From: an uncultured Methylophilaceae bacterium
GTDB taxonomy: Bacteria > Pseudomonadota > Gammaproteobacteria > Burkholderiales > Methylophilaceae
Reading direction: 5' to 3'
DNA: 64,000 nt
NCBI GenBank assembly: GCA_905182075.1
Contig: CAJIZS010000001.1
Location: 930,001 to 994,000 of the forward strand
This document shows positions 38,847 to 54,819 of this stretch, piece by piece. The position numbers and the translations under genes are program-made. The first letter of the stretch is position 1. Each line of letters starts with the position of its first letter. A model generated the notes under the pieces. That model ran no database searches. It worked only from the letters and a program-made list of their open reading frames with translations, and had not been told where the DNA came from.

Positions 38847-39738
38847 ATGAAAATTAAATCTGCTTGGATGCGAGAGATAGAGAGTGGCCAACAGCCGAGT
38901 AGCTCTGCCTTACGTGATCATCTCGACGCTGTTCATGACAATAATGCGGGTTTTACCGAAGCATTTGCATGGAACTGTCGTGATGCGAATGGTAAAAATA
39001 GTTATGAGTTGCTTGCTGATATTGTTGACCAAAAATATCATTCTCACGTTCTAGATCTTGGGTGTGGTAGTGGAGTTCTGCTAGACCTTTGCAATCAACG
39101 TTTCGGAGCTGAATTGGTGCTTTCGGGCGTTGATATGAATGATTCCGAACTACAGCTTGCACGTAAGCGCCTTGCACATACCGATATCAAGCTCCATCAA
39201 GGCACAGCACAGAACCTTGATCACTTTCCTGATTCATCTTTTGACGTGATCTTTTGCCATTGGGCATTGACTTTGATGGACCCAGTGGTTGAAGTTCTTT
39301 CCACAAGCAAGCGTCTTCTCAAGGAAAGAGGTATTTTCGCAGCTATTGTTGATGGAGATCCCAAAACTGCGCCCGGCTACCTTGAAGTCCACGATATTAT
39401 TTACAAACACGTGCAATGCTAAGTATCCGGATTATGGAGTTTTTGAACTTGGTGACCCACGCGTGAGAACAGCCGAGGAACTGCAAAAACTTACGGCAGA
39501 AACCTTTGTAGATTTTGATGTAAATATAACACCAATAACTCTGAGTTTTAATGCAGCTCCTAGCATCTTGGCACGTGAGGCGGCCGGTTTTTTCTATGCT
39601 TCATTCGTACTTTCGCGCGATGATTTCAGCCATATGCTAACTGATCTCGAAAAATATTTTATTACAAAACAGCAGGATGGAATCAGCTGTTTTACAATGC
39701 CAGTAAATCGATTAGTTGTGAGTGGAAGAGGGGAGTAA
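38847..39738 (+). CDS. Class I SAM-dependent methyltransferase, one frameshift
   Basis: First frame (38847-39422): NSYELLADIVDQKYHSHVLD with the SAM motif LDLGCGSGVLLDLC, GVDMNDSELQLARKRL, and FDVIFCHWALTLMDPVVEVL. Second frame (about 39410-39738): YPDYGVFELGDPRVRTAEEL to DFSHMLTDLEKYFITKQQDG. About 295 aa overall. Follows egtD by 43 bases and may act in the same pathway. A decayed copy of its 3' end is at 33.6 kb, and its stop codon runs directly into the first tRNA-Ala-type repeat. Confidence 0.82.
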
Positions 39739-39790
39739 TAATCCGACGGCCTAGGACGTATTTGGATTGTAAGTATGTGGGGGGTAAGAA
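39736..39790 (+). repeat. tRNA-Ala-associated direct repeat, copy A (diverged)
   Basis: Begins at the methyltransferase stop: TAATAATCCGACGGCCTAGG, then ACGTATTTGGATTGTAAG and a core TGTGGGGGGTAAG. Aligns base for base with the copies at 44.15 and 54.72 kb except for scattered changes, including three in the tRNA-derived core. The least conserved copy, hence perhaps the oldest. Confidence 0.65.
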
Positions 39791-39893
39791 CATTAAGAAA
39801 TACTTACTATTGAATTAAATTCTTTTTTAAACCCTCTAAGAAAACCAATGATTTTAATCAACTAAATCGTTAACAATACATATAGGACATATC

Positions 39894-40707
39894 ATGAGCG
39901 TATTAGAAAATTTCAAAAAGTTAAAAGCAGAAGGAAAGAAAATTGTAGTTGTTACTTCTCATGAGTACTGGAGTGCAAAGATTCTTAACGACACAGACGT
40001 AAATGGTATTTTAATTGGTGACTGTTCGTCCATGGTAATGCATGGCCATGAAGACACATTGAATTCTTGTGTGGAAACAATTGCGTTGCACACCAGAGCG
40101 GTAAAAAAAGGAGCAAAAGACAAATCAGAAATAAAAGCAGAAGTCAAAGAGTAATTTAAAGGGGATGAAGGAGACAATGGATAACGTTGAAATCTTAATC
40201 AAGGCTGGAGCAAATGCACTTAAAATAGAAGGTGTTGATGGAAACGAAGAGCTCTATGCTCATCTTTCTCAATCAGGTATTCCAACAATCGGACACATTG
40301 GCCTTACGCCATCTCACCACAATGCAATCGGTGGATTTAAAGCTCAAGGCAAAACAAAAGAAAGTGAGCTTCGCCTCATTGAAGAAGCCAAAAAACTTGA
40401 TAAGCTTGGATGTATAGCAATCGTTTTAGAAGCTGTTCCACAGCACGTAGGTGCGGCAGTTAGTGCCGCAGTTTCTATCCCAGTAGTTGGTGTCGGAGCA
40501 GGATTGGACGTAGATGGACAAGCACTGGTTTTTCAAGATATGCTAGGATTTTCTACAGACTTCAAGCCTAAATTCGTAAGAACATATATGAATGGAGCCG
40601 ATCTTATCAAAGATGCCGTAAATAAGTTCGCAGCAGATGTTCATGCAGAAGTATTCCCATCAGAAAAAGAAACTTATGCACCGGCTAAAGAACAAATAGC
40701 TAATTAA
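39894..40707 (+). CDS. panB: 3-methyl-2-oxobutanoate hydroxymethyltransferase PanB, broken
   Basis: Ketopantoate synthesis, first committed step to pantothenate/CoA. Part one (39894-40154): SVLENFKKLKAEGKKIVVVT, LIGDCSSMVMHGHEDTLNS, HTRAVKKGAKDK. Part two (40165-40707): MDNVEILIKAGANALKIEG, IPTIGHIGLTPSHHNAIGGF, VGVGAGLDVDGQALVFQDML. Where the family has IVADMPFLSYR (its Asp helps bind Mg) the DNA encodes KSEIKAEVKE and a stop. The HEYWSA segment replaces YDYWSA. So more than a base slip is involved: about 13 residues are replaced. Either a relic or a badly corrupted stretch. Confidence 0.88.
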
Positions 40708-40805
40708 GAAATAAATAGGCTATGTATATGGGTTAAGAGGATTATAAGGAGTGACAATAAATGTTATATATTTTTAATTTGTAATTCTCTTATTGCGCCA
40801 TTATT

Positions 40806-41376
40806 TTGAAAAAAGATATAGTTAGAAAAATATATTTAAAAAAACGTCAAGAACTATCTCCTTCCAAATTTGAAGAAGATTCATTTCAGCTTGTTCAAAA
40901 CACTATTGAGCTTATTAAAAAATATAAGCCTGAATGTATTCATTGCTTTTTACCCATTCATTCAAAAGGTGAAATAAACACTACACCAATCATTCAATAT
41001 TGCTGGAAAAATAACATTAATAGTTGTTGTACCTGTGAGTAACTTTGAAGAAGGGACACTAAAAAATGCAGAGTTTAGATCTCACACCAAAACCAAACAA
41101 ACAAAAAATAATATTACCGAACCAATTGATCCTATTTGGAAAAAAAACGATAATATTGATATTGTAATCACACCGCTTTTGGCTTTTGATCCTAAAGGTT
41201 ATCGAGTAGGTTATGGAAAAGGATTTTACGATCGTTTTTTTGCTTCTTTACACAAGGATGTGAAAAAAATTGGCATCAGCCTTTTTAAGCCTTGTAAAGG
41301 CATAGAAAATATAACTGAATATGATATACCTTTGACACATTGCGTTACTCCCAATAAAACCTATACTTTTGAATAA
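40806..41376 (+). CDS. 5-formyltetrahydrofolate cyclo-ligase, one frameshift
   Basis: Converts 5-formyl-THF to 5,10-methenyl-THF using ATP. TTG start at 40806; the first frame gives IVRKIYLKKRQELSPSKFEE and CFLPIHSKGEINTTPII, then a frame change near 41030 leads to VSNFEEGTLKNAEF, IVITPLLAFDPKGYRVGYGK and GFYDRFF, the nucleotide-binding signature. Ends LTHCVTPNKTYTFE. About 190 aa, normal. Its stop codon TAA lies inside the start of repeat copy B. Confidence 0.9.
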
Positions 41377-41415
41377 TTGGTGGAGGTAAGCCCAGTTGTT
41401 CTATAAGCTTCTATG
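41373..41415 (+). repeat. tRNA-Ala-associated direct repeat, copy B
   Basis: Core AATTGGTGGAGGTAAGC is identical to the 3' end of tRNA-Ala(GGC) plus two flanking bases, and the next 25 bp (CCAGTTGTTCTATAAGC and onward) are identical to copy E at 52.26 kb. The left arm seen in other copies is absent: the cyclo-ligase stop codon directly precedes the core. Confidence 0.8.
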
Positions 41416-41450
41416 TTGTCTTGTATAAATAACTATAAGAATATTTAAAA

Positions 41451-43129
41451 TCAATAGACATCTTCACGACTTTTTTCTTTCCCTCTTGGGTCAGAGGCAA
41501 TCTCAATTTTATTATTTTTATGGTCCCATGTAATTATCTGCATATTACCAAACTGCCTATTAGATTTTTTAAATATATGTCCCATACTTTCCAATTCATT
41601 AATCTCGTTCGGCATAAATGCTTCTTCCTCATAAAGCACATAATCTGGATGATATTGATGATGAAATCTTGGCAGAGAGACCATAGATTTTGCGTCTCCT
41701 CCATCTATCCATTCTAATGTTGCAAGTAGAATCATACTTATAATCCTTGAGCCTCCAGGTGTTCCTAAAATCACGAAGCCTCTATCTGATTCTAGAAAAG
41801 TTGGAGTCATACTAGATAACATTCTTTTTCCGGGCTCCACTGCATTAGCGTCATAACCAATCAATCCATAGCTATTTTCGGTTCCAGGCTTGATAGAAAA
41901 ATCATCCATTTCATTATTCAGCAAAACACCCGTCCCTTTTGGAACAAAAGCAGACCCAAACCAAAAGTTGATTGATTGAGTAACTGCTACACGATTACCA
42001 AATTTATCGATTACCGCAAAATGAGTTGTATCATTTCCTTGCCCTTGATATGGTGGGTCAGCGAATTCAAGAGTTTGATTATCTGTTGCATAATTAATAT
42101 TAATACTCTCTCTTTGTTTTGCTGCAAAACTTGGGGTTAAAAGAAATTCAAGAGACTCATCCATGAAATCTGGGTCCCCCATTTTTATGGCTCTTTCATA
42201 ATAGGCTCGCCTTAGAGCCTCAATAATTAAATGTTTTTGGGTGGTAGGGCTAAATTTATCCAATTCATATCCTGCTAATATATTAAGCGCATTAGATAAA
42301 ACTAAACCACCTGAGGATGGAAGTCCTGGGGCGATAATTGAAACTCCTTTATAGCTTGATCGAACTGGTTCTCTTTCAAGAACTTTATATCTATTTAAAT
42401 CTTCTTCGCTCCAAATACCGCCATTATTTTGAACAGATTCAACTATTTGTTTAGCAAAACTTCCTGTATAAAAACTTTTGTGACCATCTTTCATTATTTT
42501 TTTAATCGTCCTTGCTAGATCGGCTTGTTTTAAAATCCATCCTTTTTTTGGTACTTCACCTTTATCTAAAAAAATTGCTTCGGTTTCTTTATATTTCTTC
42601 AGCCACTTCTTTTTATAATTTGCTCCTTTTAAATACCTTTCATTTACAGGAAATCCATTGATTGCTGCCTTATAGGCAGGAGTCTAAAAGTGTGCTTAAT
42701 TTTTTTGAGCCGTATTTATCATTGACGTAACTTAATACCGCAGGGATACCTGGTATTCCTGCAGACAATGGTCCAAGTGTAGAAATATTTTTTATAATGT
42801 CCTCATTTTCATCTAGATACATATTTTTATGAGATTGAAGCGGAGCAGTTTCTCGAGCATCTAACATTTTATATTGCTTACTTTTAGCGTCATAAATTAA
42901 CCAGAAGGCCCCACCTCCAAGACCTGATGCAAATGGCTCTACTACAGAAAGCATTGCGCTGATTGTTGTAGCAGCATCGTAAGCGTTGCCACCTTCCGCT
43001 AAAATTTTTTCTCCTGCTTCAGTGGCTAGAGCATTTGAAGTTACAACTGCACCCTTAAATTGGAACAATTCATTGGGGAAAATGGTTCCAGAATAAAATA
43101 ATATAAATGATACATAAAGCCAATGGCAT
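41451..43129 (-). CDS. ggt: Gamma-glutamyltranspeptidase, frameshifted
   Basis: Periplasmic N-terminal-nucleophile enzyme cleaving gamma-glutamyl bonds of glutathione. From the likely ATG at 43129 a hydrophobic signal-like stretch leads, after a frame change near 43075, to AVVTSNALATEAGEKILAEG, GGNAYDAATTISAMLSVVEP and GGGAFWLIYD. A further change near 42680 leads to AAINGFPVNERYL, and another near 42495 into the C-terminal frame. Auto-processing threonine lies in QGNDTTHFAVIDKFGN; the glycine-rich oxyanion segment is PGKRMLSSMTPTFL and LGTPGGSRI. Occupies one inter-repeat module with the methyltransferase-like gene. Confidence 0.9.
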
Positions 43130-43231
43130 GGAAATTTTGGATGTCTTCATTTAATTGAAATATTTATATATTAAAGTTAAAATTATAATGCTTTAAGATA
43201 GATTATTAAACTTAATAAAAAAGTCTTGTTT

Positions 43232-43278
43232 TTGATTAATAATCAATTAATATATTTCTATAATCATATTTGATTATT
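43232..43278. repeat. A+T-rich inverted repeats upstream of the lipoprotein gene
   Basis: AATAATCAA at 43238-43246 is mirrored by TTGATTATT at 43270-43278, and the first arm is itself inside the palindrome TTGATTAATAATCAA (43232-43246). It lies in the 240-bp gap between divergent ggt and the methyltransferase-like gene, so it may be a regulator site or a weak hairpin. No other feature is evident in that gap. Confidence 0.4.
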
Positions 43279-43370
43279 TTACTTTAACCTTCAAATCATT
43301 TAAATCTATGAGTGTGTGATTTATAAATAATAAATTTTACAAACATTTTTTTGTTTTATTCTTTTTAACA

Positions 43371-44141
43371 ATGGCACTAGGCTGTAGTAAGCCGGATGCT
43401 GTCCAGCTTATTGATAAAGCTATAGAAGCTGAACATAGAACGCCTTCTTATACTCAGCGTGATAAATATCGCCACCCAAAAGAAACGTTACTCTTTTTTG
43501 GCCTGAATCCAGAACAGTCTATTGTTGAAATTACTCCAGGTTATGGTTGGTACGCAGAGATTTTAGCACCCCTGATGCGTAATAAAGGGCAGTACTTCTA
43601 TACCTCCCTAAAGTTGCATGAAAAAATAAACCCTTACTTTGTTAAATTAGAAAGAGCATTTAAAGGAAAAATGGAAAAAAATCCTGATATTTACGATCAA
43701 CTTCGTTGGGTTCATTTTGATCCAAAACAACCTGAGTTTGCTCCGAATGGTCCTGTTGATATGGTTCTTACATTTAGAAACGTCCATAATTGGGCGAAAG
43801 CGGGATCAGCTGAAGCGATGTTTACTGGTTTTGCAAAGGCACTTAAGCCAGGTGGAATTCTTGGTCTTGTAGAACATAGAGCAAAGGCAGGAACGCCATT
43901 AGAAAAGCAGATTAAAAGTGGCTATATGACTGAGGATTATGTTGTTCAGATGGCTAAAGATGCTGGTTTTAGGCTTGATGCTAAATCTGAAATCAATGCA
44001 AATCCGAAGGATACTGCTGATCATCCAAAGGGTGTTTGGAATTTGTTACCTGGCTTAAGAGGTGTGGAAGATGATGATAAAGCAAATATTATATCAATTG
44101 GAGAATCGGATCGAATGACCTTAAGATTTATTAAGGAATAA
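43371..44141 (+). CDS. Exported methyltransferase-like protein (COG4798 type), probable lipoprotein
   Basis: 256 aa from ATG 43371, with EHRTPSYTQRDKYRHPKETL, a degenerate SAM motif IVEITPGYGWYAEILAPLM, VDMVLTFRNVHNW and GGILGLVEHRA, as in the predicted exported methyltransferases of COG4798. The frame continues upstream with NKFYKHFFVLFFLTMALGC, a signal peptide with lipobox ending at Cys (LxxC as ALGC). The real start is therefore upstream, near 43323, at a non-ATG codon or behind an error. Its stop (TAA) runs into repeat copy D. Substrate unknown. Confidence 0.8.
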   Translation: MALGCSKPDAVQLIDKAIEAEHRTPSYTQRDKYRHPKETLLFFGLNPEQSIVEITPGYGWYAEILAPLMRNKGQYFYTSLKLHEKINPYFVKLERAFKGKMEKNPDIYDQLRWVHFDPKQPEFAPNGPVDMVLTFRNVHNWAKAGSAEAMFTGFAKALKPGGILGLVEHRAKAGTPLEKQIKSGYMTEDYVVQMAKDAGFRLDAKSEINANPKDTADHPKGVWNLLPGLRGVEDDDKANIISIGESDRMTLRFIKE

Positions 44142-44202
44142 TAATCGGACCGTCTAGGACCTATTTGGACTGTAAATTGGTGGATGTAAGCTCCATTTTA
44201 CT
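44139..44202 (+). repeat. tRNA-Ala-associated direct repeat, copy C
   Basis: Starts at the stop codon of the preceding gene: TAATAATCGGACCGTCTAGG, ACCTATTTGGACTGTAAATT, then core GGTGGATGTAAGC (one change from the tRNA end) and TCCATTTTACTTC. About 48 of 50 positions match the tRNA-linked copy at 54.71 kb. The core and flanks form an imperfect inverted repeat (GTAAA to TTTAC across GGTGGA and TCCAT). Confidence 0.82.
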
Positions 44203-44228
44203 TCTTCTTTAAAGCCTATACTTAAAGC

Positions 44229-44756
44229 CTACTTATGCAATGCATAATATTCGGTGGCTAATACTAATAAGTAAAAACAGCCTCCATAAGTAATCAAATC
44301 AAGAATAAGATTTAAAGTTTTGGCTAATATTGGAATAGGATGAGGGTAGGGACCAATTTCTTTTTCCCATCTTCTAATTTTTGATTGTAGTTCTTTGCTA
44401 GAGGTTGTGCTTCGCATCTGCCCCTCCAAACCAACAGATAAAGCTATTTTTCTAAATTCTTTACCATGCATGCGAATATCATCTCCATAAATATGGTATT
44501 GAATAGCATGACACATTTCATGAATGAGTACTCCTGTTGCCTCTAAACCATTGTCAATATTTTCATCAACTTCAATTTCATGTAAGCCTGACTTATTTTG
44601 CTCATATGTTAATGGGTAATAAACCCCGGCAAACCTACCTGTATCGGCAACAGATACAATTATTTCTTTCTTAATTTCAGAAATATTAAATCCCTGCTCA
44701 TCAAATAACGGTATAGCTTTCCTTATCATTAACTTTAGATATAAATTCTTAGTCAT
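44229..44756 (-). CDS. SprT-like zinc metallopeptidase-like protein
   Basis: Intact 175-aa protein with VLIHEMCHAIQYHIYGDD, an HExxH zinc motif at about residue 78, and a third ligand candidate in MHGKEFRKIA, the arrangement of SprT-like proteins. It lacks the C-terminal zinc ribbon but has a hydrophobic C-terminal helix (ILDLITYGGCFYLLVLA), which suggests membrane anchoring. It follows the sortase gene on the same strand with a five-base gap, so it could process sortase substrates; this is inference. Confidence 0.75.
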   Translation of the reverse strand: MTKNLYLKLMIRKAIPLFDEQGFNISEIKKEIIVSVADTGRFAGVYYPLTYEQNKSGLHEIEVDENIDNGLEATGVLIHEMCHAIQYHIYGDDIRMHGKEFRKIALSVGLEGQMRSTTSSKELQSKIRRWEKEIGPYPHPIPILAKTLNLILDLITYGGCFYLLVLATEYYALHK

Positions 44757-44761
44757 TGATT

Positions 44762-45290
44762 TTAATACAAAAAATTATCATAATTTTTTATTGAAAGATT
44801 TTCTGCCGTTACGACGTAACGAAGTGAGCCACCTGCAGTAAGGGTATCAAATGGGTAGCAGGTAACTAACTTTAACTCAGCCTGAGTATCACTTATATCA
44901 ATACCTTGCTTTGAAGCATCAATGATCTCAATGTCACTCACCTTAAATATGAGTTGGTTTTGATCTAGGGTGGTGGTAGTAAGTACTTTCTCCAATTTTA
45001 ATATTTTGTAGAAAATTAAAATGGGTGTCGCGGTGTGCAGAGACAAGCCAAGTAGAAGAGTATCTGTTTGGGGGTGTTTGGTGACTCAAGCCTGGACCGA
45101 AAGCTAATACGTTTCCTGTATCTCCTGCTAATACTATTAAGTCTTGTTTATGTTTAACTGATTCAAGACGCATAACTGGATACATATCGGCCCAACTCCA
45201 AGGTTTGACAGTTTGACCTAGCTGCATAGATTCATGCCAAGCATGGCGAATTAAATACTGACTTAATTCAGCTTTTAGGGGTGTATAGGC
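44762..45290 (-). CDS. GN-class sortase, frameshifted
   Basis: Class GN sortase, the Gram-negative transpeptidase that handles a single neighbouring VIT/vWA protein. Upstream frame SYGAYTPLKAELSQYLIRHA; then QLGQTVKPWSWADMYPVMRL, LIVLAGDTGNVLAFGPG and VSAHRDTHFNFLQNIKIGE with the catalytic His; after a frame change near 45000 FKVSDIEIIDASKQGIDI and LKLVTCYPFDT with the catalytic Cys. The closing Arg is in GGSLRYVVTA. The start is unclear and overlaps the target gene. Signal/anchor helix is at the N-terminus in the family; only part is visible. Confidence 0.88.
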
Positions 45291-47451
45291 TCCATAAGAA
45301 AAAGTTATTATGCCAGCAATTCGACTTTAATAATATAAAATTTTTATACGAAGCAATTAAAAAAACTAAAAGTATTACCAATAAACCAATGAGCATCAAA
45401 AGAGAAGCATTCGTTCCTGTTTGAGCTAGATGCATCACTTTTTTTGGAGTGAACATTGAGAGATCACTCTTCTTAGTCACTGCTTTAGTGGCCAAGTGCT
45501 CTAATCCAGGTCTTGATGGGGTCACATCAATTGCTACTAATGAAGTAAATTTAGAGACCAGATGATGCTCAATCGCTAGTTTAGTAATTTCAATGCGTCC
45601 AAGCTCTTTTTCTACATCATCCCATAATGATTGGTAATGATCTGTAAGCTTCTCTATCTTTCGACGACCCCATAACACACTGATTCCTGTCGCCGGACTA
45701 GCTTCGGAAACATTAATTTTCTTTTTAAAAAGACCGTTTGAGGTCTTACCGGTTATTTCTAACGAAGCTGGTAATTTATTTAACTTAAATACAGCAGTGA
45801 TAGTTTCACCTCTATATAAATCCGGAATCACATCGTTAGCCTGTTCCGCATTGATGTATGACGGTAATGTCACCTTGATATCAGTCAGTGCTGGTGATTC
45901 AAGCTTAGCAAAGAGAGATGTCATTTTTTCTGCTACTTCACTGACTTTGCCAATATAGGTAAAAGCCCCTTTACCGTAATCGGCTAATTTGGTCATCAAA
46001 TATGTATTTGGAGCTGATCCGATTCCAATTGTAAATAAGCGGTCTTGCTTAATATATTGACGCACTGTGTCGATGATTTCATGTTCGTTGGCGACTTGGC
46101 CGTCAGTAAGAAAGATGATTTGTCGGAGATAGTCTGCCGCATTTTCTTTTCTTGAAGTAAATGCATACTTGATTGCCTCCAGAGGCTCTGTTCCTCCATC
46201 TGCCGATAAAGCCAGAGTAAATGAAGTCGCTCTACTTTTGTTTGCAAGGATGGCAGGCATGGCGGCTTTAAAGAGGGGGCTAAATTGATCATCAAAGTCG
46301 ATCACGTTAAACCGATCAGTCCTTTTGAGTCGATTAATCGCCTGAATCAAAGCTTTTTTTGCTTGTTTCATTGATTTTCCACTCATGGATCCAGAAGAAT
46401 CAATGATAATGATTACCTCTCGTGGTATTTGGTTGGGTTCAAATGTTTTTTCTTTTGAAGGGGTGGCCATTACCATCAAGTAATGATCACCGTCTTTTTT
46501 TTGGGTAAAGATAGCGAGTTCTGTTTGAGACGTAGTTTCCGGTGCCCAGACCAACTCAAAATCATGTTCTGCTTCTGTAGTCTGGGAGAGGCTAATATGT
46601 TTGGTATGTTGATTAACGTCTACTGTATTAATCAAATGATGGCTTGATTTAATGCTTGCTGGATTAAATCCTGCCTTTAAATGAATATCGATGCTTACTG
46701 GCCTAGCAACGTCAGGGTCACTTGGCGGGGTCACCTCAGAGGCATCAGTTACCCTATGGGTATTAGGTGACAAACCTAAAGCATTATGTGGTGTGCTAAC
46801 TTCTGTTCCGGGCACATATCGATCTTTTACCACCATTGGAAAGCGTATTGAGAATTGATCATTGTCTATTAGAACTATTTGTTGGTACTCAATTGCAATT
46901 GTAATACTTTCCCCAGGAGGAATATTGGCAACACTTGCGGTGAATATATTAGGGCGTTGTTGTTCAATTAAGGCAGCTTTTTTACCTTCTTTTTTAGCGG
47001 CTTGATATATTTTACGTGCCTCTATCTTCTCTTTGATGAGCCCCTCTATGATTTGATTACCTATATGCATGGTCAGGTGGTCAACCGCAGAGTCTTCGGG
47101 TAAGGGAAAGACATAAACGCCTTCTACCCATTCATTCGATGGATTAGTGAAGGTTTGTTCTACTCGAACACGATTTACTGTACCTGTAATATCCATCTGG
47201 ACTTTAGTGTCTAAAGCAATCTGTGTTATTCGAGAAGAATCTGAGAGGCGATAGATGATAGATCCGGAGTCGACATAATTAATAGGATTCACCTTGTCGG
47301 GGCTATTGATTTGATGGGTAGCGGTACTTGGTGTATTGATAAAAGAAATTTTGGTATAGCCATTTGTCACATATAAAGATAGAGTCAATAAAACGGTTAG
47401 CCCAATAATTGATACTCTAATTTTACTTAATAAAGATTTCTGCATCTTCAT
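45268..47451 (-). CDS. VIT/vWA-domain sortase target protein
   Basis: Intact 727-aa exported protein (signal/anchor helix at residues 9-30). VIT (inter-alpha-trypsin) domain about 65-200 (NRVRVEQTFTNPSNEWVEGV), vWA domain about 345-510 with the MIDAS motif IIIDSSGSMSGKSM and DGGTEPLEAI. The C-terminal sorting signal is LAQTGTNA followed by a hydrophobic helix (SLLMLIGLLVILLVFLIAS) and basic residues, matching the LPxTG-like tripartite signal of the marine proteobacterial sortase-target family. It is the substrate of the adjacent GN sortase. Likely a surface or periplasmic adhesion/sensor protein. Confidence 0.92.
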   Translation of the reverse strand: MKMQKSLLSKIRVSIIGLTVLLTLSLYVTNGYTKISFINTPSTATHQINSPDKVNPINYVDSGSIIYRLSDSSRITQIALDTKVQMDITGTVNRVRVEQTFTNPSNEWVEGVYVFPLPEDSAVDHLTMHIGNQIIEGLIKEKIEARKIYQAAKKEGKKAALIEQQRPNIFTASVANIPPGESITIAIEYQQIVLIDNDQFSIRFPMVVKDRYVPGTEVSTPHNALGLSPNTHRVTDASEVTPPSDPDVARPVSIDIHLKAGFNPASIKSSHHLINTVDVNQHTKHISLSQTTEAEHDFELVWAPETTSQTELAIFTQKKDGDHYLMVMATPSKEKTFEPNQIPREVIIIIDSSGSMSGKSMKQAKKALIQAINRLKRTDRFNVIDFDDQFSPLFKAAMPAILANKSRATSFTLALSADGGTEPLEAIKYAFTSRKENAADYLRQIIFLTDGQVANEHEIIDTVRQYIKQDRLFTIGIGSAPNTYLMTKLADYGKGAFTYIGKVSEVAEKMTSLFAKLESPALTDIKVTLPSYINAEQANDVIPDLYRGETITAVFKLNKLPASLEITGKTSNGLFKKKINVSEASPATGISVLWGRRKIEKLTDHYQSLWDDVEKELGRIEITKLAIEHHLVSKFTSLVAIDVTPSRPGLEHLATKAVTKKSDLSMFTPKKVMHLAQTGTNASLLMLIGLLVILLVFLIASYKNFILLKSNCWHNNFFLWSLYTPKS

Positions 47452-47572
47452 CCCCTTAGATTTGGTGACTAGATTTCGGACTAGTCAGACGGAGGAAGTC
47501 ACAACAGGAGAGTTAATTAACTTTCCTCATAAGGGTAGACGCGTGAAGTAAAATTTAGTCAGGGTTCATTTA

Positions 47573-47659
47573 TTTGCCCATATAATTGTCTGGGGGTAAA
47601 CTGGTCTTATGAAAAAACTACTCCTACTCTTATTCTTAATACCTAATCTGGTGATGGCC
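47573..47659 (+). repeat. Promoter/signal-peptide repeat cassette, copy 1
   Basis: TTGCCC, 17 bases, TAAACT (sigma70-like -35/-10), then GGTCTT and ATG, followed by a leader-peptide region (MKKLLLLLFLIPNLVMA). The -10 box ends only six bases before ATG, so transcription would start at or next to the start codon: a leaderless mRNA. About 50 of these bases recur at 49.04 and 49.65 kb, and the leader part recurs at 47976. Confidence 0.72.
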
Positions 47660-47975: not shown

Positions 47976-48026
47976 ATGAAAAAACTACTCCTACTCTTAT
48001 TGTTAATACCTAATCTGGTGATGGCG
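47976..48026 (+). repeat. Signal-peptide repeat, copy 2 (leader only)
   Basis: Fifty-one bases, from ATG to the Ala codon, are identical to copy 1 except one base in the leader (TTCTTAAT versus TTGTTAAT). No promoter part is present; the copy begins exactly after the previous stop and leads into a short A+T-rich ORF that runs over the terminator hairpin. So the repeat boundary coincides with the start codon here. Confidence 0.7.
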
Positions 48027-48031
48027 GCCTT

Positions 48032-48060
48032 AAAAAAAACTACCCGAAGGTGGCTTTTTG
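48032..48060. terminator. Bidirectional rho-independent terminator
   Basis: A-tract (48032-48039), stem CTACC, loop CGAA, stem GGTGG, then C and a T-run (48055-48059). The A-tract on one side and T-run on the other suit termination from both directions, between the small secreted gene (plus) and the lipoprotein gene ending at 48076 (minus). Confidence 0.7.
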
Positions 48061-48075
48061 TTAACGTTAACCTAA

Positions 48076-48414
48076 TTAACTACACTGATAAACCACAAAT
48101 GTAGCAGATTGCGTGCCACGACCTTTTTCTGGATTGTCTATCATCACGATAGTATTTCCACCTTGTTCAACGGCTGCATTTTTAGAAAGCTGTAGCAAAT
48201 CCTTTTCAATGTACGCATAAATTCTTTCTGCATAACCAGTAATTCTTACGGTATTTTTCCCTTTGATAGTGCATGTTGATATATCGCTTTCATTTACCAC
48301 CCTGACATTTTGAGAATTTTCCTTAACGTCTACAAATAGTGGCCCACAACCGTTCATTAAGCCTAATAAAGTAATTGCGAAGAAAGCTAAAAGTATTTTT
48401 TTTAAAGTCTTCAT
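48076..48414 (-). CDS. DUF4156-like lipoprotein
   Basis: 112-aa lipoprotein from ATG 48414: signal peptide with lipobox MNGC (LLGLMNGCG), then a compact domain with NVRVVNESDISTCTIKGKNT, LSKNAAVEQGGNTIVMIDNP and a C-terminal VVYQC. The pattern of Cys in TC-T-KG and the KNxAxxxGGNT motif is that of DUF4156/RcsF-like lipoproteins, which act at the outer membrane. Monocistronic, with the bidirectional terminator just downstream. Confidence 0.72.
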   Translation of the reverse strand: MKTLKKILLAFFAITLLGLMNGCGPLFVDVKENSQNVRVVNESDISTCTIKGKNTVRITGYAERIYAYIEKDLLQLSKNAAVEQGGNTIVMIDNPEKGRGTQSATFVVYQCS

Positions 48415-48483
48415 TGTCATAATCTCCTTATTATTTGATTGTCTTAAATAAAATATTAAAATTTTAAAAAGCCTATAAAATCT

Positions 48484-48927
48484 CTAATTACCTTTATTTC
48501 TACTTTGAACCCCTCCCCAAACTTGTACTCTCATTTTCTTATGATCTTCTCGACTACCCGGAAGTCCTTCATCTATTTTAGGAGAAGATTTCAAAGCTGC
48601 CTTTTCTCCACAGTCAAGACAAGTGTGATAACCAGCTTGTTTTCTTTTAATATTAAAGTGTTTTCCGCACGAACATATTGCATCATTTTTATTTTTTTCT
48701 TCCCTTGCTTCACTTACGTATTCCTTTAAGTAATTAAAGGTAGTGAGTATATTGTTTAAAGTTTTCTTGTCGGGCCGCCAATTATCTTTAACATAATAAT
48801 CTCGGAATAATATTTTAATACTCCGTTGCCTTTGATTAACAAAATCCATATTCGTAGATATCTTAAGAGAATAAAGTTCTTCTATTAAGGAATTTATTGT
48901 AGCTAATTTTTCAGAATCTATAGTCAT
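48484..48927 (-). CDS. Small zinc-ribbon protein, unknown
   Basis: 147-aa protein: helical N-terminal half (KLATINSLIEELYSLKIST), then a zinc ribbon made of ICSCGKHFNIKRKQAGYHTC and LDCGEK (C-x-C and C-x2-C pairs), and a basic tail. No family recognised; similar C-terminal ribbons occur in phage and plasmid proteins. It sits between the DUF4156 lipoprotein gene and repeat copy 3 in the accessory zone. Confidence 0.6.
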   Translation of the reverse strand: MTIDSEKLATINSLIEELYSLKISTNMDFVNQRQRSIKILFRDYYVKDNWRPDKKTLNNILTTFNYLKEYVSEAREEKNKNDAICSCGKHFNIKRKQAGYHTCLDCGEKAALKSSPKIDEGLPGSREDHKKMRVQVWGGVQSRNKGN

Positions 48928-49037
48928 AATATCTAAAAACCCTAATTACCACTTTTTTATAATATATTAAATAAAGGCTTCGAAGAACGTTATTTCAATA
49001 TATCTGCAGACAAATTTTAAACTCCCCCTCAACAACT

Positions 49038-49103
49038 CATTTGCCCACTTAATTGTCGGGGGGTAAACTGGTCTTATGAAAAAACTACTCCTACTCTTAT
49101 TTC
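49038..49103 (+). repeat. Promoter/signal-peptide repeat cassette, copy 3
   Basis: CATTTGCCCACTTAATTGTC, then GGGGGGTAAACTGGTCTT and ATG AAA AAA CTA CTC at 49076. Identical to copies 1 and 4 apart from a few bases through the start codon, and to copy 1 through 28 further bases; then it diverges (LLLLLFPISKYK) and stops within 12 codons, just before the ATG of the 88-aa ORF at 49125. The leader here is apparently decapitated. Confidence 0.7.
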
Positions 49104-49124
49104 CAATATCTAAATATAAATTCT

Positions 49125-49391
49125 ATGGATAAAAATAATTTAGACACAAAGGTTAACTCTGAACTGTTAAATTACATCCACGCAGAGGAGAGAGAGGAAA
49201 GAGATAAGCACTTTAGTAATTACAAAGAGCTAATTGCAAAAAGAATATGCCTTGCTAATAAGGAGGAAGAAAGCATAAATCATCCTGTGCTTCATTTTTT
49301 AAAAAAGATACGGTCTATTTTGCTATTTCCATTGTTATATCCAATAATAATCCTAGACAATTTGTTGAGGTTTTTAAAAATCATTAAATGA
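49125..49391 (+). CDS. Small protein with C-terminal membrane segment
   Basis: 88-aa ORF: acidic/basic helical N-terminus (LLNYIHAEEREERDKHFSNY), then a hydrophobic segment (ILLFPLLYPIIILDNLLRFL) likely in the membrane. It starts at ATG 49125 close after the truncated leader copy 3. No family recognised. Its stop is 14 bases before the segment similar to 33.55 kb. Confidence 0.5.
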   Translation: MDKNNLDTKVNSELLNYIHAEEREERDKHFSNYKELIAKRICLANKEEESINHPVLHFLKKIRSILLFPLLYPIIILDNLLRFLKIIK

Positions 49392-49402
49392 AAAAACTCC
49401 GA

Positions 49403-49440
49403 AAGTATTGCAATGGAACTACTTGATTTTTCTAGGAAGA
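49403..49440 (+). repeat. Short repeat shared with 33.55 kb
   Basis: AAGTATTGCAATGGAACTAC followed by TTGATTTTTCTAGGAAGA matches 33548-33591 with about 80 percent identity by eye. It precedes tRNA-Ala repeat copy D without a gap, so it may represent the end of an element. The rest of the 300-bp gap (49392-49690) holds repeat D, three ATTACCCCCTAA motifs and cassette copy 4. Confidence 0.6.
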
Positions 49441-49515
49441 TTGGACTGCCTAGGACAGTATAAAACAGTAAATTAGTGGAGGTAAGCTCCACTGTACTAA
49501 TTGTTATAAGCCTTT
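49441..49515 (+). repeat. tRNA-Ala-associated direct repeat, copy D
   Basis: TTGGACTGCCTAGGACAG, TATAAAACAGTAAATT, then AGTGGAGGTAAGCTCCACT. The core forms a perfect 7-bp hairpin, AGTGGAG (49475-49481), GTAAG, CTCCACT (49487-49493). Left arm shares CTAGGACAGTATAAAACAG with copy E; right arm continues GTACTAATTGTTATAAGCC, related to copy C. Confidence 0.8.
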
Positions 49516-49547
49516 ATTTATTTGATAGTTAGGGTAGTGCTTTCATA

Positions 49548-49648
49548 ATTACCCCCTAAATTACCCCCTAAAGCTCTAGAAAAATACACTTTTTAGTAGC
49601 TTTTTAATTGTATATCCAATTCAATTCCAATAGTAAATTACCCCCTAA
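49548..49648 (+). promoter_or_regulatory. Three ATTACCCCCTAA repeats (iteron-like)
   Basis: ATTACCCCCTAA at 49548-49559, head-to-tail at 49560-49571, and again at 49637-49648, immediately before cassette copy 4. The core TTACCCCC is also present in reverse complement (GGGGGTAA) in every promoter cassette, overlapping the -10. A shared DNA-binding protein is one explanation. Confidence 0.5.
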
Positions 49649-49650
49649 TA

Positions 49651-49702
49651 TTCATTTGCCCACTTAATTGTCTGGGGGTAAACTGGTCTTATGAAAAAAC
49701 TA
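49651..49702 (+). repeat. Promoter/start repeat cassette, copy 4
   Basis: TTCATTTGCCCACTTAATTG, TCTGGGGGTAAACTGGTCTT, ATGAAAAAACTA. It is almost identical to copies 1 and 3 up to the fourth codon and then switches to an unrelated membrane peptide. So the repeat supplies promoter plus first codons to different coding sequences. Confidence 0.72.
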
Positions 49703-49852
49703 ATTAAATGGATTCTTATAGTTGCAGTAATCTTATTGCTCTTATTTCTTTTGTTAAGTTGGTTTACTGCTGAAAGCCAATACAGGTGTGACAGGATTCA
49801 ATCAGTAGAATCTGTACCATTTCCATACAATTATCTTGGGTTATTTTGTTAA
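49691..49852 (+). CDS. 53-aa membrane peptide
   Basis: Starts in cassette copy 4. MKKLIKWILIVAVILLLLFL forms a single transmembrane or signal segment, followed by SWFTAESQYRCDRIQSVESV and PFPYNYLGLFC, a short periplasmic tail with two Cys. No known family. It is 77 bases upstream of the coiled-coil membrane gene and may be the first gene of that unit. Confidence 0.5.
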   Translation: MKKLIKWILIVAVILLLLFLLLSWFTAESQYRCDRIQSVESVPFPYNYLGLFC

Positions 49853-49929
49853 TAAAAACCTAACTTATGAAAAAACTTGAATAAATAAGTTATAGTCATA
49901 ATTATATTTGTAAATATTAGGTTTTTATC

Positions 49930-51649
49930 ATGACTGAAAACATTACAGATTTAAGAACTCAAAAACAGTCGATAGCAAAATTGTTACTTAGGATGGCATG
50001 GACCATCGAAATTATGGCTGCAATACTGGGTTTATCAATTGGGATTGCTTTAACAGCAGAAAAAATGAGTATAGCTGATATAAGATTTTCACAATTAATT
50101 TACATTTTCCTCCCATGGTTTGTTGTTGCAATAGTTGAGTTAGTAAAAATACCATTAGCTTCTGTATTGTATTTAACAGAAAGTTTTAAATGGCGAGTGA
50201 TATTAGGACTAGGTTTAATTGCTGCAACAATTATTACTTTTGAAACATTCTCTGTTGGATTTGAACTTAATCAAAATGTAAGAACATCAGAACTGACAGC
50301 TCTTCATTCAAAAATTGCTGAAAAAAAATCAATTATTAATTCTTATGAAGATAAAGATGGTAATTTACAGATCCGTGATTTAAATGCAGCAAATTTTACC
50401 AATTGTATTATTGACGGGTCATTATCAACTGAAGTGAGTTTTCCGGAAGATGAAAACCTTACTAATCAAATGAATGTAATTAATAAAGAGTATTCAAAGA
50501 AAAATAGTGAAACTAATTTACTTGAATCCATAGAAAAGCGGTTATTGGCATTAAAAAAAGAAAGAGATGATGCTATTAATGTAGAAGAGAGATCAAGAAC
50601 TGAAGAGCTAGAAAGTGCAAAAAGTGAGGGAGAAAATGTATATCAAATTCGACTAGGTCAAATATCAAGATTACAGAATGAAATGCAGGCAATAAGAGAT
50701 GCAGCTCAAAAAGAGTATGATTCCTGTAACTTTTTAGGCTGTAGCAGAATTATGGTTGAGCGTGATAAAAAACTTGCGGCCAAAGATAAAAGAATTAACA
50801 ATTTACAAATGAAAACTACTGCTACAGGAAGGATAAGTCAAATATCAACCTCTACAAATCTAAAAATTACTGAGATTAGAGAAAATTATAAAAGTAGAAT
50901 TGAAGAATTAAATGAAAGAATTGCTACACAATCTGCTCTAGCGGCAAGATCGATTGGTAAAAAAACACCTGAGGATGAAAGTCGTCTTAAAGAACTTCAA
51001 GCAGAACTAAAAAAATTAACTGCAGAAGAGAATCAGCAAAAAAATATTGCTACAGAAGATTTTAATGAAAGAATGGAAGAGAATGCATTAATAAGAACAA
51101 CTGCTAAAGTTGCCTTGAAAGATAAAGTACAAGCAGAAAAAGATAAAGAGGTATTGTGTTCTGAATTTAATACCAAGGTTCTTGATAATCAAATTTATAG
51201 AATAGCAATGCGGTTATCCTTTTCTGATAAAACACAACAGGCATGCGATTTAAATCAGGATCACGTTAATTTAGTAGCTGCAATATGGTTTGGGTCAATA
51301 GCCCTTATTGTTGCCTTACTTGGTACTTTATTGGCATTCGGTTCATTTTTGATGTCAAACCCACCAAGACCCTCAAATCCATCTAAATCTTTTGGGGGTC
51401 TTTTACGCGGAATTATATACGGCCTAAGAAAAAGGATGAAAAATCCTAAAATCATTAAAGAAGTAGTTGAAAAAGAAGTAAAAGTTGAAGTCGAAAGGAT
51501 TAAAGAAGTAATAGTTCCTGAGGTTCGTTATGTAAAAGAAGAAGTAAAGGTAGAGGCACCAATAGAGGTGAAAAAAGAAGCCTGTGTATACAGATGATCC
51601 GAGCTTAGTAGAATGGACTAAAAACAAAAAAATAAAACCTAAAAAATAA
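49930..51649 (+). CDS. Large membrane-anchored coiled-coil protein
   Basis: About 570 aa. Three N-terminal membrane helices (residues about 20-45, 60-80, 90-112), a long periplasmic or cytoplasmic coiled-coil (about 120-440, rich in Glu/Lys/Arg heptads, including ESIEKRLLALKKERDDA), another helix at 455-480 (AIWFGSIALIVALLGTLLAF), and a basic/acidic tail with repeated V-E-K-E-V (VVEKEVKVEVERIKEVIVPE). The long frame ends at 51597; a frame change near 51577 extends it through KPVYTDDPSLVEWTKNK to 51649. Four or more Cys lie in the coiled-coil region (CNFLGCSR). Family unknown to me; see findings. Confidence 0.7.
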
Positions 51650-51654
51650 TTTTT

Positions 51655-52227
51655 ATGGCCCAGAAAAATACATCCACAAACTCAGTATTTAACGACTTTG
51701 ATGCAGTTGATGGTGCTGTAAGAGAGATAACTGCAAAACACGAAGCGGAAAATAAAATTAGAAGGAGTCATGCTATTCAAAGAGTTTTGAAATGGAGTGG
51801 TATTTTTGTCATCGCTCTAGCAATAGCTTTATGGATAATATTTATGGCTTATCGAGCAATGAATGCTCCTTACTTAGAAAAAGAAAAAATTGTAGAAGAA
51901 TCAAAAGCTAAACAAGAATTAAAACATGTAACGCCTGGAATTATTGTCGAAAATTATGTGAAATTTACCAGAATACCTATTGATATACCTGGCTATGGTG
52001 AAGTTGTGATTGGTCGAGAATATCTAAATGAATTCTCAGTTAATCCAAGTAGCCAATGGTGTTATACAGAAAGGACTAGTTCATCGAATATATCAAAAAA
52101 AATTAGCCTAAGAACCAAATTTAACAATGATGATTCCTATCTAGATACTGACTTTAATTCTTTAAAACCTCTTGGTCTGACTCCAGCGATGTTAAGTAAA
52201 ATGCAAAGTTTATGTCGTTTTGATTAG
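51655..52227 (+). CDS. Single-pass membrane protein, partner of the coiled-coil protein
   Basis: 190 aa, starting six bases after the reconstructed end of the upstream gene, so translationally linked. A hydrophilic cytoplasmic N-terminus (FNDFDAVDGAVREITAKHEA), one helix (WSGIFVIALAIALWIIFMAY, about residues 48-67), and a soluble C-terminal domain with TRIPIDIPGYGEVVIGREYL and two Cys (QWCYTERT, QSLCRFD). No family recognised. Ends 12 bases before repeat copy E. With the upstream gene it fills one inter-repeat module. Confidence 0.65.
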   Translation: MAQKNTSTNSVFNDFDAVDGAVREITAKHEAENKIRRSHAIQRVLKWSGIFVIALAIALWIIFMAYRAMNAPYLEKEKIVEESKAKQELKHVTPGIIVENYVKFTRIPIDIPGYGEVVIGREYLNEFSVNPSSQWCYTERTSSSNISKKISLRTKFNNDDSYLDTDFNSLKPLGLTPAMLSKMQSLCRFD

Positions 52228-52239
52228 CTTAAACACTCT

Positions 52240-52302
52240 ATAAGAGTATAAAACAGTAAATTGGTGGAGGTAAGCCCAGTTGTTCTATAAGCTTCTATGT
52301 AA
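52240..52302 (+). repeat. tRNA-Ala-associated direct repeat, copy E
   Basis: CTATAAGAGTATAAAACAG, TAAATTGGTGGAGGTAAGC, then CCAGTTGTTCTATAAGC. Core identical to the tRNA-Ala 3' end; right arm identical to copy B for 25 bp, left arm shared with copy D. It joins features of two other copies, as expected from recombination between them. The gap up to 52502 holds only the small ORF below. Confidence 0.8.
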
Positions 52303-52320
52303 TCCTATCTGCTATGAAAT

Positions 52321-52458
52321 CTAAAAAGAAACTGCATTGTAATAAATTACACAGAATAAAACACCACATATAAAGCCATACATGGCGTCTATTCTTAGTT
52401 CTTTATAGTCTTTAAGATCCTTGATTGTTTCAGTTATGATTTGATATATTTCTCTCAA
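52321..52458 (-). CDS. Possible 45-aa membrane peptide
   Basis: TTG start at 52458, sequence REIYQIITETIKDLKDYKEL, then MYGFICGVLFCVIYYNAVSF as one transmembrane segment. An A-rich GAGAAAATAAT precedes the start. No known family. It lies between repeat copy E and the restriction-like gene and could be the small third gene of that module. Only a candidate. Confidence 0.3.
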   Translation of the reverse strand: MREIYQIITETIKDLKDYKELRIDAMYGFICGVLFCVIYYNAVSF

Positions 52459-52502
52459 TATTATTTTCTCTTTTTTAAATAGGGATGTAAACTGCTGAAT
52501 CT

Positions 52503-54493
52503 TTAATGCCCCGATCCTTCTGGTTGTAATGGATCAGGCTGAAATTTCCATATAATATCGTAAGCTTCACCTGCAAGTTTTTTACTCCTACTTTCTATAA
52601 TTTCTTCAGGACGCTCATTCCATTCTTTATGATCGTATCCTTTAATAAATCTTTGATTGTAGGGTAAAGTATTTTTTTCGGGATGAGTTTTCAATACCTC
52701 ACATTTCTCGCTTGGTAAAAGAGTGTTTAAATCCGTGTTATTTATTCCGCCATTAATAATAATTTCCTCATTAGAGGTATTCATAAGGTTCTTTTTTACC
52801 TACAACTTCTATTGTTTCTCCATCATCAGTAATTTCGGAGCGAATTTTTGATTTTGATATTGGGTACCAATGCTCAATCTCACTATCAAGTTTCTTTAGA
52901 GAAACACCGGGTTGGAAAAGGTGCTTTCTGGAGGTTGGACTCACTTTTTTATTAGAGGAATCTACTCCATTAAACTTATCATAAATATACCGTATATTTT
53001 GATTACTACCAGAATAAGCGATTTGAATAAAATCTCCGACAAATACATCTTTATCGGTCAAGCTAGTTTTCAATTCTTTATAAAAATTATTTAATAAGGC
53101 AATAAAGCTATTTACATTATTACACCTACATATATCTTTTGCGTATTCTGGGTATAGATGCTCAACTTTATGTCCTACGTTTGTTGAAATATAATTATTA
53201 ATAAAGTGATAATTCTCTAGTGTTTCAAAGAAATTGGTAATGACTTTTGGCTTATATTGATCTATTTTATGCATTTTTAACGCATAAAATTTTGCAAGAA
53301 ATGCATAAATTAAAGGTATTGTTTGGGTAACTTTAAATAAATTTAATCCTCGCATAGAAATCATTATTGACTCTTGCTCTTGCTCTGTAAATTCTTTCTC
53401 CCGAGCACCAAATAATGAAAAGATTTTGTTTATTTGATAAAGTTGGGTGACATCAGTAATCTGTTGAAAAAAGCTTGTAAATTTTTCTAATTCAACGACT
53501 AGATGTAAATACCTATCTTGTTTAGATTTGTCTTTGTATTCTTTTAAATATTCGTCATCAACATCATAAAAATTTCTCATCGCATTATAAAGTTTACCGG
53601 TCGTAATATGACCATGATGGCTCATATAAAAATATCTGAGCGATTGCCCAAACTTATTTCCAGTATTTTCAACAATACCATCCCACATATCAATGATGTC
53701 AATGTCATCTTTATTTTCATAATCCCAGTTTGCAAATATTGTTGCTTTTAAAAGGTCTCCGACTTCTAAATCCTTGCCTCTAGAATTTGTTCTTTCAAAA
53801 TAAATAAATGCCTCAGCATAATCTGTAAGGTTTGTTCTAATAAATGCAATACTAAGTAAAACAGTATTAACAGTAGCAAATTCTTTTGGTTGAATTTTGT
53901 CATTTAATGCCTTGAGAAAATAGTTATATATCGGCTGAACTCTATTAACCACTCTTTTTATAGCATGCCCTTTTAATTTCATTGGCCAATCATATTTCCA
54001 GTTTGGATCAAGAATATGCTCCATTATCGGTTCAATATTACTTGCAGTTCTAAGCCTGTGCCCTGTTGCTTTACCAGTATTCCGATCAAATTTAGATATA
54101 AGCTCGGACATTGTTTGAACGATTCTTTCAGCAGCGTGTTTGTTTTCAGCATCTAAACTATCATCTTTTATTATATTTAATAACCATGTTTACTTTTTGA
54201 TACAGAATATTACGCTTTAATTAATTCAATGCTCCAATACCTGATTTCCAGAGTTTTTTGCTGATGGGCATAAAATAATATTTCCTAGAAATAATTCTGC
54301 TGAGTTTTCATCACCATCATCTTTTATTGGATTTTTTTTATTAAAATTCCATTTGATCATAAAAATCATCCCAAAAATCTTCAATCTCCCTATCTTTATG
54401 CCAAACATATTTTCGCTGATAAGAGGGAACAATAAATTCTTTTGTCTCTTCAATTAATTCCGATAAATTACGTTTATGCGCATGAACAGCCAA
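52503..54493 (-). pseudogene. GmrSD-like (DUF262/DUF1524) type IV restriction relic, frameshifted
   Basis: N-terminal DUF262 piece (about 54225-54493): NLSELIEETKEFIVPSYQRK, YVWHKDREIEDFWDDFYDQM, SAELFLGNIILCPS, where SYQRKYVW is the family signature. The next region should hold IxDGQQR, the nucleotide-binding motif, but the DNA from about 54180 to 54235 encodes no such thing and contains stops. The middle piece (52771-54111) covers the helical linker with FIYFERTNSRGKDLEVGDLL. The DUF1524 HNH-like end shows IEHWYPISK and, in a third frame, NTLLPSEKCEVLKTHPEKN, WNERPEEIIESRSKKLAGEA. Family firm, activity doubtful. Confidence 0.82.
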
Positions 54494-54707
54494 AATTCAA
54501 TCCTCTCCATTTAAATTAATTTTACTATATTGTAGCTTACACTCCGATTATTAAGGAAACAAATGTAAAAAAGGTACTACTCCGTAAAATATTTACTAAA
54601 AAGGTACTAAAGTTTTTTCAGTAGTACCTAAAGTTCACTGGATACAATAAGACTATTTTGGACAGCATAGGACAGTTTTTAAAGGGTTTTAGGGAGGAGT
54701 GTAGTTG

Positions 54708-54760
54708 TAATCGGACGGTCTAGGACCTATTTGGACTGTAAATTGGTGGAGGTAAGCGGG
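54708..54760 (+). repeat. tRNA-Ala-associated direct repeat, tRNA copy F
   Basis: TAATCGGACGGTCTAGGACC, TATTTGGACTGTAAATTGG, then TGGAGGTAAGC, the last part being the 3' end of tRNA-Ala read from the opposite strand. This is the intact tRNA-linked version: left flank matches copy C in about 36 positions. A related half-motif, TTGGACAGCATAGGACAG, lies at 54658-54675. Confidence 0.82.
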
Positions 54761-54819
54761 ATCGAACCGCTGACCCTCTGAATGCCATCCAGATGCTCTC
54801 CCAGCTGAGCTATACCCCC
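54744..54819 (-). tRNA. tRNA-Ala (GGC)
   Basis: 76-nt gene with encoded CCA. On the minus strand it starts GGGGGTATAGCTCAGCTGGG, has anticodon loop ATGGCAT with GGC, and ends CAGCGGTTCGATCCCGC, TTACCTCCACCA. Its 3' end is the apparent anchor of the direct-repeat series that extends leftwards to 39.7 kb. Confidence 0.97.

Follow-up and report, generated by a model that had tools for sequence, protein, structure and literature searches.

A probable additive island of small, integrase-free cassettes at the 3' end of tRNA-Ala(GGC), beside dif, in an OM43-clade bacterium

Additive genomic islands keep a fixed location, target a tRNA gene and gain or lose cassettes between strains, as the sections on Alteromonas in two papers describe (PMC4119200, PMC5217437). 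In Candidatus Methylopumilus, a sister lineage of Methylophilaceae, the available text of Layoun et al., 2024 (PMC10872708) describes an additive island, fGI-2, at tRNA-Lys(CTT); it states this for two freshwater species only, and strain HTCC2181 lies outside its island analysis. The same text mentions small insertions in OM43, with an integrase called xerC at the border of some; it saw no bona fide integrons among such insertions, and it treats tycheposons, tRNA-associated cargo elements of marine bacteria that span 4-200 kb and include fGI-3 of OM43 at tRNA-Met (PMC10872708). Here, we describe a locus in 64,000 nucleotides of an uncultured Methylophilaceae bacterium (the whole stretch, hereafter the window, is 930001-994000 of contig 1 in a 1.1 Mb assembly of two contigs, rated 47% complete), in which copies of the 3' end of a tRNA-Ala(GGC) gene divide about 15 kb into modules that we call M1 to M5, with a further module, M0b, directly to their left. 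We consider this locus to be, probably, an additive genomic island of small cassettes without an integrase, stacked at the tRNA 3' end ~8 kb from dif and moved by a recombinase acting in trans.

The likeness to the Alteromonas islands lies in the fixed place, the conserved tRNA target and the cassette variation, and a related island there has a tRNA 3'-end duplication; the Alteromonas island exceeds 110 kb, whereas the modules here measure 1.4-5.2 kb, have no integrase that we could find and keep phased arm motifs, and their array sits beside dif in genomes of ~1.3 Mb (PMC4119200 and PMC5217437, as far as the sections cited go). fGI-2 shares serial tRNA-end repeats between small cassettes and additive variation (PMC10872708, same text); it differs in its tRNA-Lys target and in that the 20-bp repeats of MMS-RIV-52 represent the gene's 5' end plus upstream flank, not the 3' end. 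As in tycheposons, a tRNA gene lies at the border, but we found no recombinase gene (no PF00589 match in the fetched arrays), there are several units in tandem, and six of seven modules (M0b, M1, M2, M4, M5 and a module X known from relatives) are smaller than 4 kb (PMC10872708, same text). Integrons resemble the locus in having small cassettes, several of which end in a recombination site just after the gene; here, however, there was no IntI candidate in the incomplete genome and no attC-like fold, genes run in both orientations, and the site derives from tRNA-Ala, and we set the integron reading aside on the first two of these points. Islands in tandem at one tRNA gene and helper-dependent elements are known for stacking by a tyrosine recombinase and for dependence on a helper, and their typical members encode an integrase. 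Our array shares the stacking at one tRNA and differs in that no mobility gene was recognised in its modules. The literature that we searched on tycheposons and on OM43, additive and tandem islands yielded neither the tRNA-Ala locus nor an integrase-free form, and 'tRNA-Ala' and 'alanine' are absent from the main text of PMC10872708. Additive islands as such are known; this one stands apart in that it keeps its arm motifs while no integrase was recognised in it, and in its position next to dif.

The pattern TAAATTGGTGGAGGTAAGC, with up to three mismatches, occurs five times in the window, always on the plus strand (41373, 44173, 49469, 52257 and 54739), against a mean of 0.02 matches in 100 shuffles. 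With at most one mismatch, TTGGTGGAGGTAAGC occurs at these five array places only in the whole 1.1-Mb incomplete assembly, over a span of 13.4 kb; at up to three mismatches, the assembly holds 50 matches vs. 18 for a reversed-pattern control. The core of a site corresponds to the last 13-14 bp of the tRNA gene, and we refer to the sites, in ascending order, as A to F (Table 1). The original prediction had counted six same-orientation copies of the tRNA end: five cores stand, whereas the copy at 39.74 kb (site A) has kept its flank and lost a proper core, and the copy at 41.38 kb (site B) has core and right arm but, to its left, the end of the folate cyclo-ligase gene in place of a GGAC-type flank. 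Copies were also said to follow gene ends directly, which is so for A, B, C and E; site D lies ~50 bp past the end of an open reading frame (ORF), and site F comes next to the start side, rather than the end, of a gene on the minus strand. Left arms C and F agree at 35/36 bases. Site E does have mosaic arms as predicted, the left one D-like (27/36 bp identical) and the right one B-like (27/30 identical, with a perfect 42-bp block common to B and E), but the recombination between copies that had been invoked is unneeded, since an internal site of a stack consists of the left-hand module's left arm and the right-hand module's right arm.

To describe the arms, we aligned on the core 15 hand-chosen left arms from 10 genomes (relatives carry handles of the form G001), omitting copies that are nearly identical, flanks of the M1 type and those of G003, G006, G008 and G023, the last four having been set apart by eye as armless. 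A GGAC-like motif recurs at -32, -22 and -12 (mean scores 0.76, 0.69 and 0.57, vs. 0.07-0.51 at other offsets), and the three-offset score, with motif and offsets derived from the very arms being scored, is 0.675 vs. a shuffle mean of 0.296 and a maximum of 0.397 (20,000 shuffles). Seven arms that are less than 55% identical score 0.664 vs. 0.293, and all 43 core matches in the fetched stretches (up to two mismatches, unselected, chance matches included) score 0.577 vs. 0.285 (sd 0.016; 3,000 shuffles). The tRNA flanks of G003, G006, G008 and G023 are without the arm motif, and their score of 0.246 is not an independent control. Right arms (n=12) showed no clear 10-bp periodicity (0.326 at lag 10 vs. 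0.241-0.318 at the other lags from 5 to 16), inverted GGAC-like motifs were seen by eye only in X and in one G029 site, and sites C, D and E gave no strong single-strand fold on either strand (z from -1.92 to +0.78). Attachment sites of tyrosine recombinases comprise a core plus arm-type repeats, and judged by their sequence the full sites here look like such attachment sites, with a tRNA-derived core and phased arm-type repeats.

Among relatives, modules are gained and lost at cores and stand in different orders and combinations. Of 61 genomes, 56 contain a match to the tRNA-queF stretch; we fetched 20 stretches, 16 of them long enough for array comparison (four end at or just past the tRNA), and compared 13 more later. 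M0b recurs in five relatives (G005, G017, G018, G028 and G029), M2 in seven (G002, G005, G014, G017, G019, G025 and G029, cut by contig ends in G005 and G017) and M1 in 11 (G008, G014, G015, G017, G018, G019, G022, G023, G025, G028 and G029). Between M0b and M2, the source genome has M1 and G029 has X, with a site at each end of X; in G017 the two are joined via one site, and likewise in G005, where the core has decayed. M1 and M2 are joined via one site in G014, G019 and G025, while M0b intervenes in G017; in the same three genomes M2 joins the tRNA via one site, where M3, M4 and M5 intervene in the source genome. X (1.36 kb, from G018 and G029) adjoins the tRNA in G018, its two copies are 96.2% identical from core to core, and this identity begins at the core even though the preceding left arms differ in type. 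The contigs of G012, G022 and G027 end 2 bp past the core. Arms diverge there, and contig ends at this place are in keeping with more than one way for the sequence to continue. The location is the same across strains and species, cassettes (M0b, M1, M2, X) are added and lost there, and breakpoints fall at cores and att-like sites. The original prediction that modules would be present or absent between repeat cores held up when related genomes were compared: the 15 kb is not shared as a whole, and at up to one mismatch the repeat is no genome-wide dispersed family. The picture of stacked modules is likewise borne out overall by gain and loss at cores, with panB/folate cyclo-ligase (M1) as its weak part; on its left M1 lacks a site, three relatives have panB in inverted orientation, and M1 is also present in G008 and G023, with their motif-free tRNA flanks. 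Given its occurrence in 11 relatives, M1, the weakest module, may belong to the older content of the region.

Modules are also more similar between species than the backbone around them. M2 DNA is 94.7% identical to that of G029, 94.8% to G005, 92.9% to G002 and 93.0% to G017, whereas a first backbone stretch shows 67-74% to these four and a second 65-68% to G002 and G017, with no match in G005 and G029 (all backbone values are for long matches; short ones, of some tens of bases, have higher values). Identity at third codon positions gives the same contrast: 41-52% for CFA synthase, 44-56% for amine oxidase and 42-51% for desaturase (eight relatives each) and 48-74% for queF (six relatives), vs. 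73-87% for M0b genes (five relatives), 70-82% for panB (six) and 78-93% for M2 genes (ggt in six relatives, the methyltransferase-like gene in four). DAO, another backbone gene, gave 31-39% over at most 96 aligned codons in three relatives and was left uncounted, and the contrast is weakest for G017 against queF (74%). Because module genes exceed backbone genes in third-position identity, modules appear to move between species, and the array bears signs of recent module movement.

We built a sequence-only model, R1, from 15 sites. At E≤1e-6 it finds 23 sites in 12 of the 31 genus genomes (the 15 building sites and eight new ones), and at E≤0.1 it matches 21 of the 31. At E≤0.01 the model matches 23 of the 187 genomes of the family. 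Six of the 23 are outside the genus (best E 0.0015), and in four of these six the match is simply the end of tRNA-Ala; of the genomes searched, only those of this genus showed arrays. The dif pattern (up to two mismatches) has exactly one match in 23 of the 31 genomes and none in eight. From tRNA-Ala to dif the distance is 7.65-11.6 kb, with a median of 8.1 kb (computed for 18 of the 23 genomes with a dif match; for contigs that break off at the tRNA, the contig end was used), and in the source genome it is ~7.8 kb. With a similar spacing kept in the genus, the distance between the replication terminus and the start of the array hardly varies.

The original prediction saw no integrase, and PF00589 indeed has no match in the array or in the array stretches fetched from relatives; all 31 genus genomes have PF00589 matches, which lie outside these stretches. 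A tyrosine recombinase with the same core, which the original prediction suggested looking for elsewhere in the genome or in relatives, did not turn up; the search returned XerC/XerD-like loci and extra integrases without a site. The source genome has PF00589 at two loci, both split by frameshifts, which look like XerC and XerD given their dapF-like and rplS-like neighbours (gene names by our own reading; this context was examined in the source genome alone). Among 14 genomes at least 90% complete, nine have two PF00589 matches only, including the site-bearing G015, G017, G018 and G028. Fourteen stretches around extra integrases of relatives held no copy of the site (best 5.0 bits); the RNA genes in them are tRNA-Arg, Phe, Met, Pro and His and a tmRNA, none of them Ala, and some of the extra integrases have no tRNA or tmRNA gene nearby. 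In IMG/VR, the arm alone matched 19 contigs, none with the core at up to one mismatch, and three cargo proteins had no relative in viral contigs. For an OM43 phage, the portion of its paper considered here reports no integrase (PMC9004378).

We infer that the cassette unit would run from the right arm just after one core to the left arm just before the next. The usual three GGAC-type motifs of the left arm, one helical turn apart, would then be arm-type binding sites of a tyrosine recombinase supplied in trans, most likely from a passing phage or integrative element. Recombination between two cores would excise the cassette as a circle, a vehicle would carry it from cell to cell, and it would insert at a core, whether tRNA-proximal or internal; insertion would regenerate the tRNA end, so that cassettes would pile up in one orientation.

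A number of observations weigh against this reading. The motif and offsets of the arm statistic come from the scored arms; M1-type left flanks (site B here, and G014, G017, G022 and G025) score like shuffles (0.27-0.35), as do two G029 sites, and in HTCC2181 two weak sites are as far as 74-78 kb away from the tRNA. Several module ends have no site: the right end of M2 lies just after a stop codon in G029 and G002, the right end of M0b in G028 has no recognisable site and its left end no clear one in the source genome and G028, and the left end of M1 is siteless in the six genomes compared there (for G017, the sequence available before M1 is only 56 bases). In G008, G018 and G029, panB and the gene next to it have the opposite relative orientation, so ordinary rearrangement acts too, and metB, left of the array and unbounded by sites, has 81% third-position identity with G018, so exchange in the region is not confined to site-bounded modules. 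Nor was the site-specific recombinase found: beyond the arrays without PF00589, two arm plus core patterns had no match in IMG/VR, a distant BLAST search with site C returned one 25-bp match at E 0.5 in phages and none in plasmids, and for the source genome such negatives are limited by its incompleteness.

Part of this would be expected if RecA-dependent recombination after uptake of foreign DNA, using the ~50-bp arm plus core repeats as short homologies, had exchanged or deleted modules between repeats with no integrase at all: several site-bearing genomes show no site-specific integrase, the arms of C and F are almost the same, and the panB inversions and the exchange of metB outside the sites speak of general rearrangement. 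We nevertheless regard this as unlikely; X starts at the core behind left arms of different types, which leaves ~13-20 bp of usable homology, divergent arms keep the helical phase of GGAC, which homology alone does not explain, and the origin of the tRNA end on each module is left unaccounted for. Decayed cores at A and in G005, G018 and G029, together with decayed tRNA fragments of greater length next to cores of G018, G016 and G001, agree with a relic array, in which autonomous elements inserted serially long ago, lost their integrases and are now shuffled by descent and deletion, but an M2 identity of 93-95% vs. 65-74% for the backbone (long matches) points to later movement, the fetched arrays gave no PF00589 match, and we find a mere relic improbable.

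Very little probability falls to the host's own XerC/XerD, aided by the proximity of dif. These are the only tyrosine recombinases seen in several site-bearing genomes (nine of the 14 genomes above have two PF00589 matches only), and dif lies ~8 kb from the tRNA; yet no XerD half-site TTATGTTAAAT occurs in sites B-F at up to two mismatches, and the cores, tRNA-derived with phased arm motifs, are unlike dif. An element that exploits XerCD/dif was set aside on the same lack of a XerD half-site in B-F at up to two mismatches. The additive island moved in trans is thus the reading that we adopt. A stronger form of it, in which cassettes without a mobility gene of their own (1.4-5 kb, cargo plus two arms) circulate in the OM43 clade and are moved at cores solely in trans, we put forward only tentatively, as the less likely outcome.

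Table 1. Modules, sites and neighbouring features, with positions in the window.
Feature	Positions	Strand	Content
Module M0b	36631-39738		Methyltransferase gene, which goes on in a different frame at 39289-39738; two ORFs on the minus strand, without family match
Site A	39736-39785	+	Left arm retained, core decayed; E 0.0155, model positions 2-35
Module M1	39891-41376	+	panB (split), truncated 5-FTHF cyclo-ligase; no site at left end
Site B	41375-41416	+	Core and right arm, without GGAC left arm; E 0.0035
Module M2	41392-44141		Gamma-glutamyltranspeptidase (split) and methyltransferase-like protein without family match
Site C	44141-44224	+	Left arm, core (1 mismatch), right arm; E 4e-16; model-building site
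Module M3	44192-49436		SprT-like protein, class GN (marine) sortase (split) and its VIT/VWA target, DUF4156 protein, small ORFs
Site D	49437-49520	+	Left arm, core with perfect inverted repeat AGTGGAG-GTAAG-CTCCACT, right arm; E 1.1e-12; model-building site
Module M4	49488-52227	+	Two proteins without family match
Site E	52225-52300	+	D-like left arm, core, B-like right arm; E 8.2e-10; model-building site
Module M5	52276-54706	-	DUF262/GmrSD-like protein, resembles PADLOC HEC-06 and Orf5; N-terminal part absent from ORF
Second GGAC cluster, upstream of site F	54657-54679	+	Pattern scan; also in relative G004
Site F	54707-54757	+	Three phased GGAC motifs and core GGTGGAGGTAAGC, fused to tRNA body; E 6.6e-17; model-building site
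tRNA-Ala(GGC)	54744-54819	-	ARAGORN; 3' end (low-coordinate side) is the putative integration target
queF	54829-55344	-	First backbone gene past the tRNA
Backbone genes, presumably smc (split), zipA-like, ligA (truncated)	55356-61010	+	ORF translations; putative names
dif-like site	62510-62533	-	Single copy in source assembly

The cargo is varied (Table 1). The two minus-strand ORFs of M0b read as putative dioxygenase pieces and the two M4 proteins as putative coiled-coil membrane proteins, while X putatively encodes nucleotidyltransferase-like and CDP-alcohol phosphotransferase-like genes (our own reading of the sequence, not a family search). A search of 10 proteins against PHROGs returned a family of unknown function for the DUF262 protein, weak VWA matches, generic methyltransferases and nothing else; with no integrase, satellite or packaging genes among these 10, the array does not qualify as an element like a phage-inducible chromosomal island. 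A leader of 50-75 bp is present four times in M3 and M4 (47572-47646, 47939-48013, 49039-49113 and 49654-49728); it consists of upstream sequence, an ATG and the start of a lysine-leucine-rich signal peptide, and pieces of it also occur in G015 and G029. In the fetched relatives M3 is represented by just these leader repeats and one 261-base match (68%), M4 has no DNA match beyond the leader repeat in 16 relative arrays, and the last 100 bp alone of M5 match a relative (G004).

A 3' relic of the M0b methyltransferase at 33588-33737 is 77% identical to 39512-39662 and has a weak GGAC cluster before it, at 33535; it may be what remains of an earlier M0b copy on the left of metB. The block of metB and a flavin monooxygenase (33850-36496) is inverted in G018 (91% identical), has the source orientation in G006, G008, G016 and G020, and varies in place without recognisable tRNA-Ala sites. 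Longer decayed tRNA-Ala fragments (~45 bp and more) lie by old cores in G018 (L081 7331-7392), G016 (L075 6024) and G001 (L071 14953), which would suit earlier insertions by different elements that share a longer stretch with the tRNA.

On the other side of the array, the tRNA gene is on the minus strand, and therefore its 3' end faces the modules. The best relatives of queF are from Methylophilaceae and include HTCC2181, KB13 and LSUCC0717, strains that the cited text of PMC10872708 names as OM43; the host is therefore a marine OM43-clade member of the Methylophilaceae, living on one-carbon compounds. Within smc, tandem 66-bp repeats run in frame (56507-56704). Frameshifts split many genes (40154-40165, 42494-42670, 44943-45046 and 57296-57596), including smc and, elsewhere, xerC and xerD; because these are split as well, and the assembly is rated 47% complete in two contigs, sequencing indels are suggested rather than pseudogenes.

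Streamlined ocean bacteria have few mobile elements, which raises the question of how they exchange adaptive genes one at a time. Because the units and sites of this locus are defined and its place is fixed, gains and losses here lend themselves to counting in metagenomes; the locus also predicts a specific recombinase acting in trans, and the arm motif could guide the search for it. If cassettes do circulate in the OM43 clade in this way, the locus would resemble an integron with a borrowed integrase, beside the replication terminus of a streamlined ocean bacterium.

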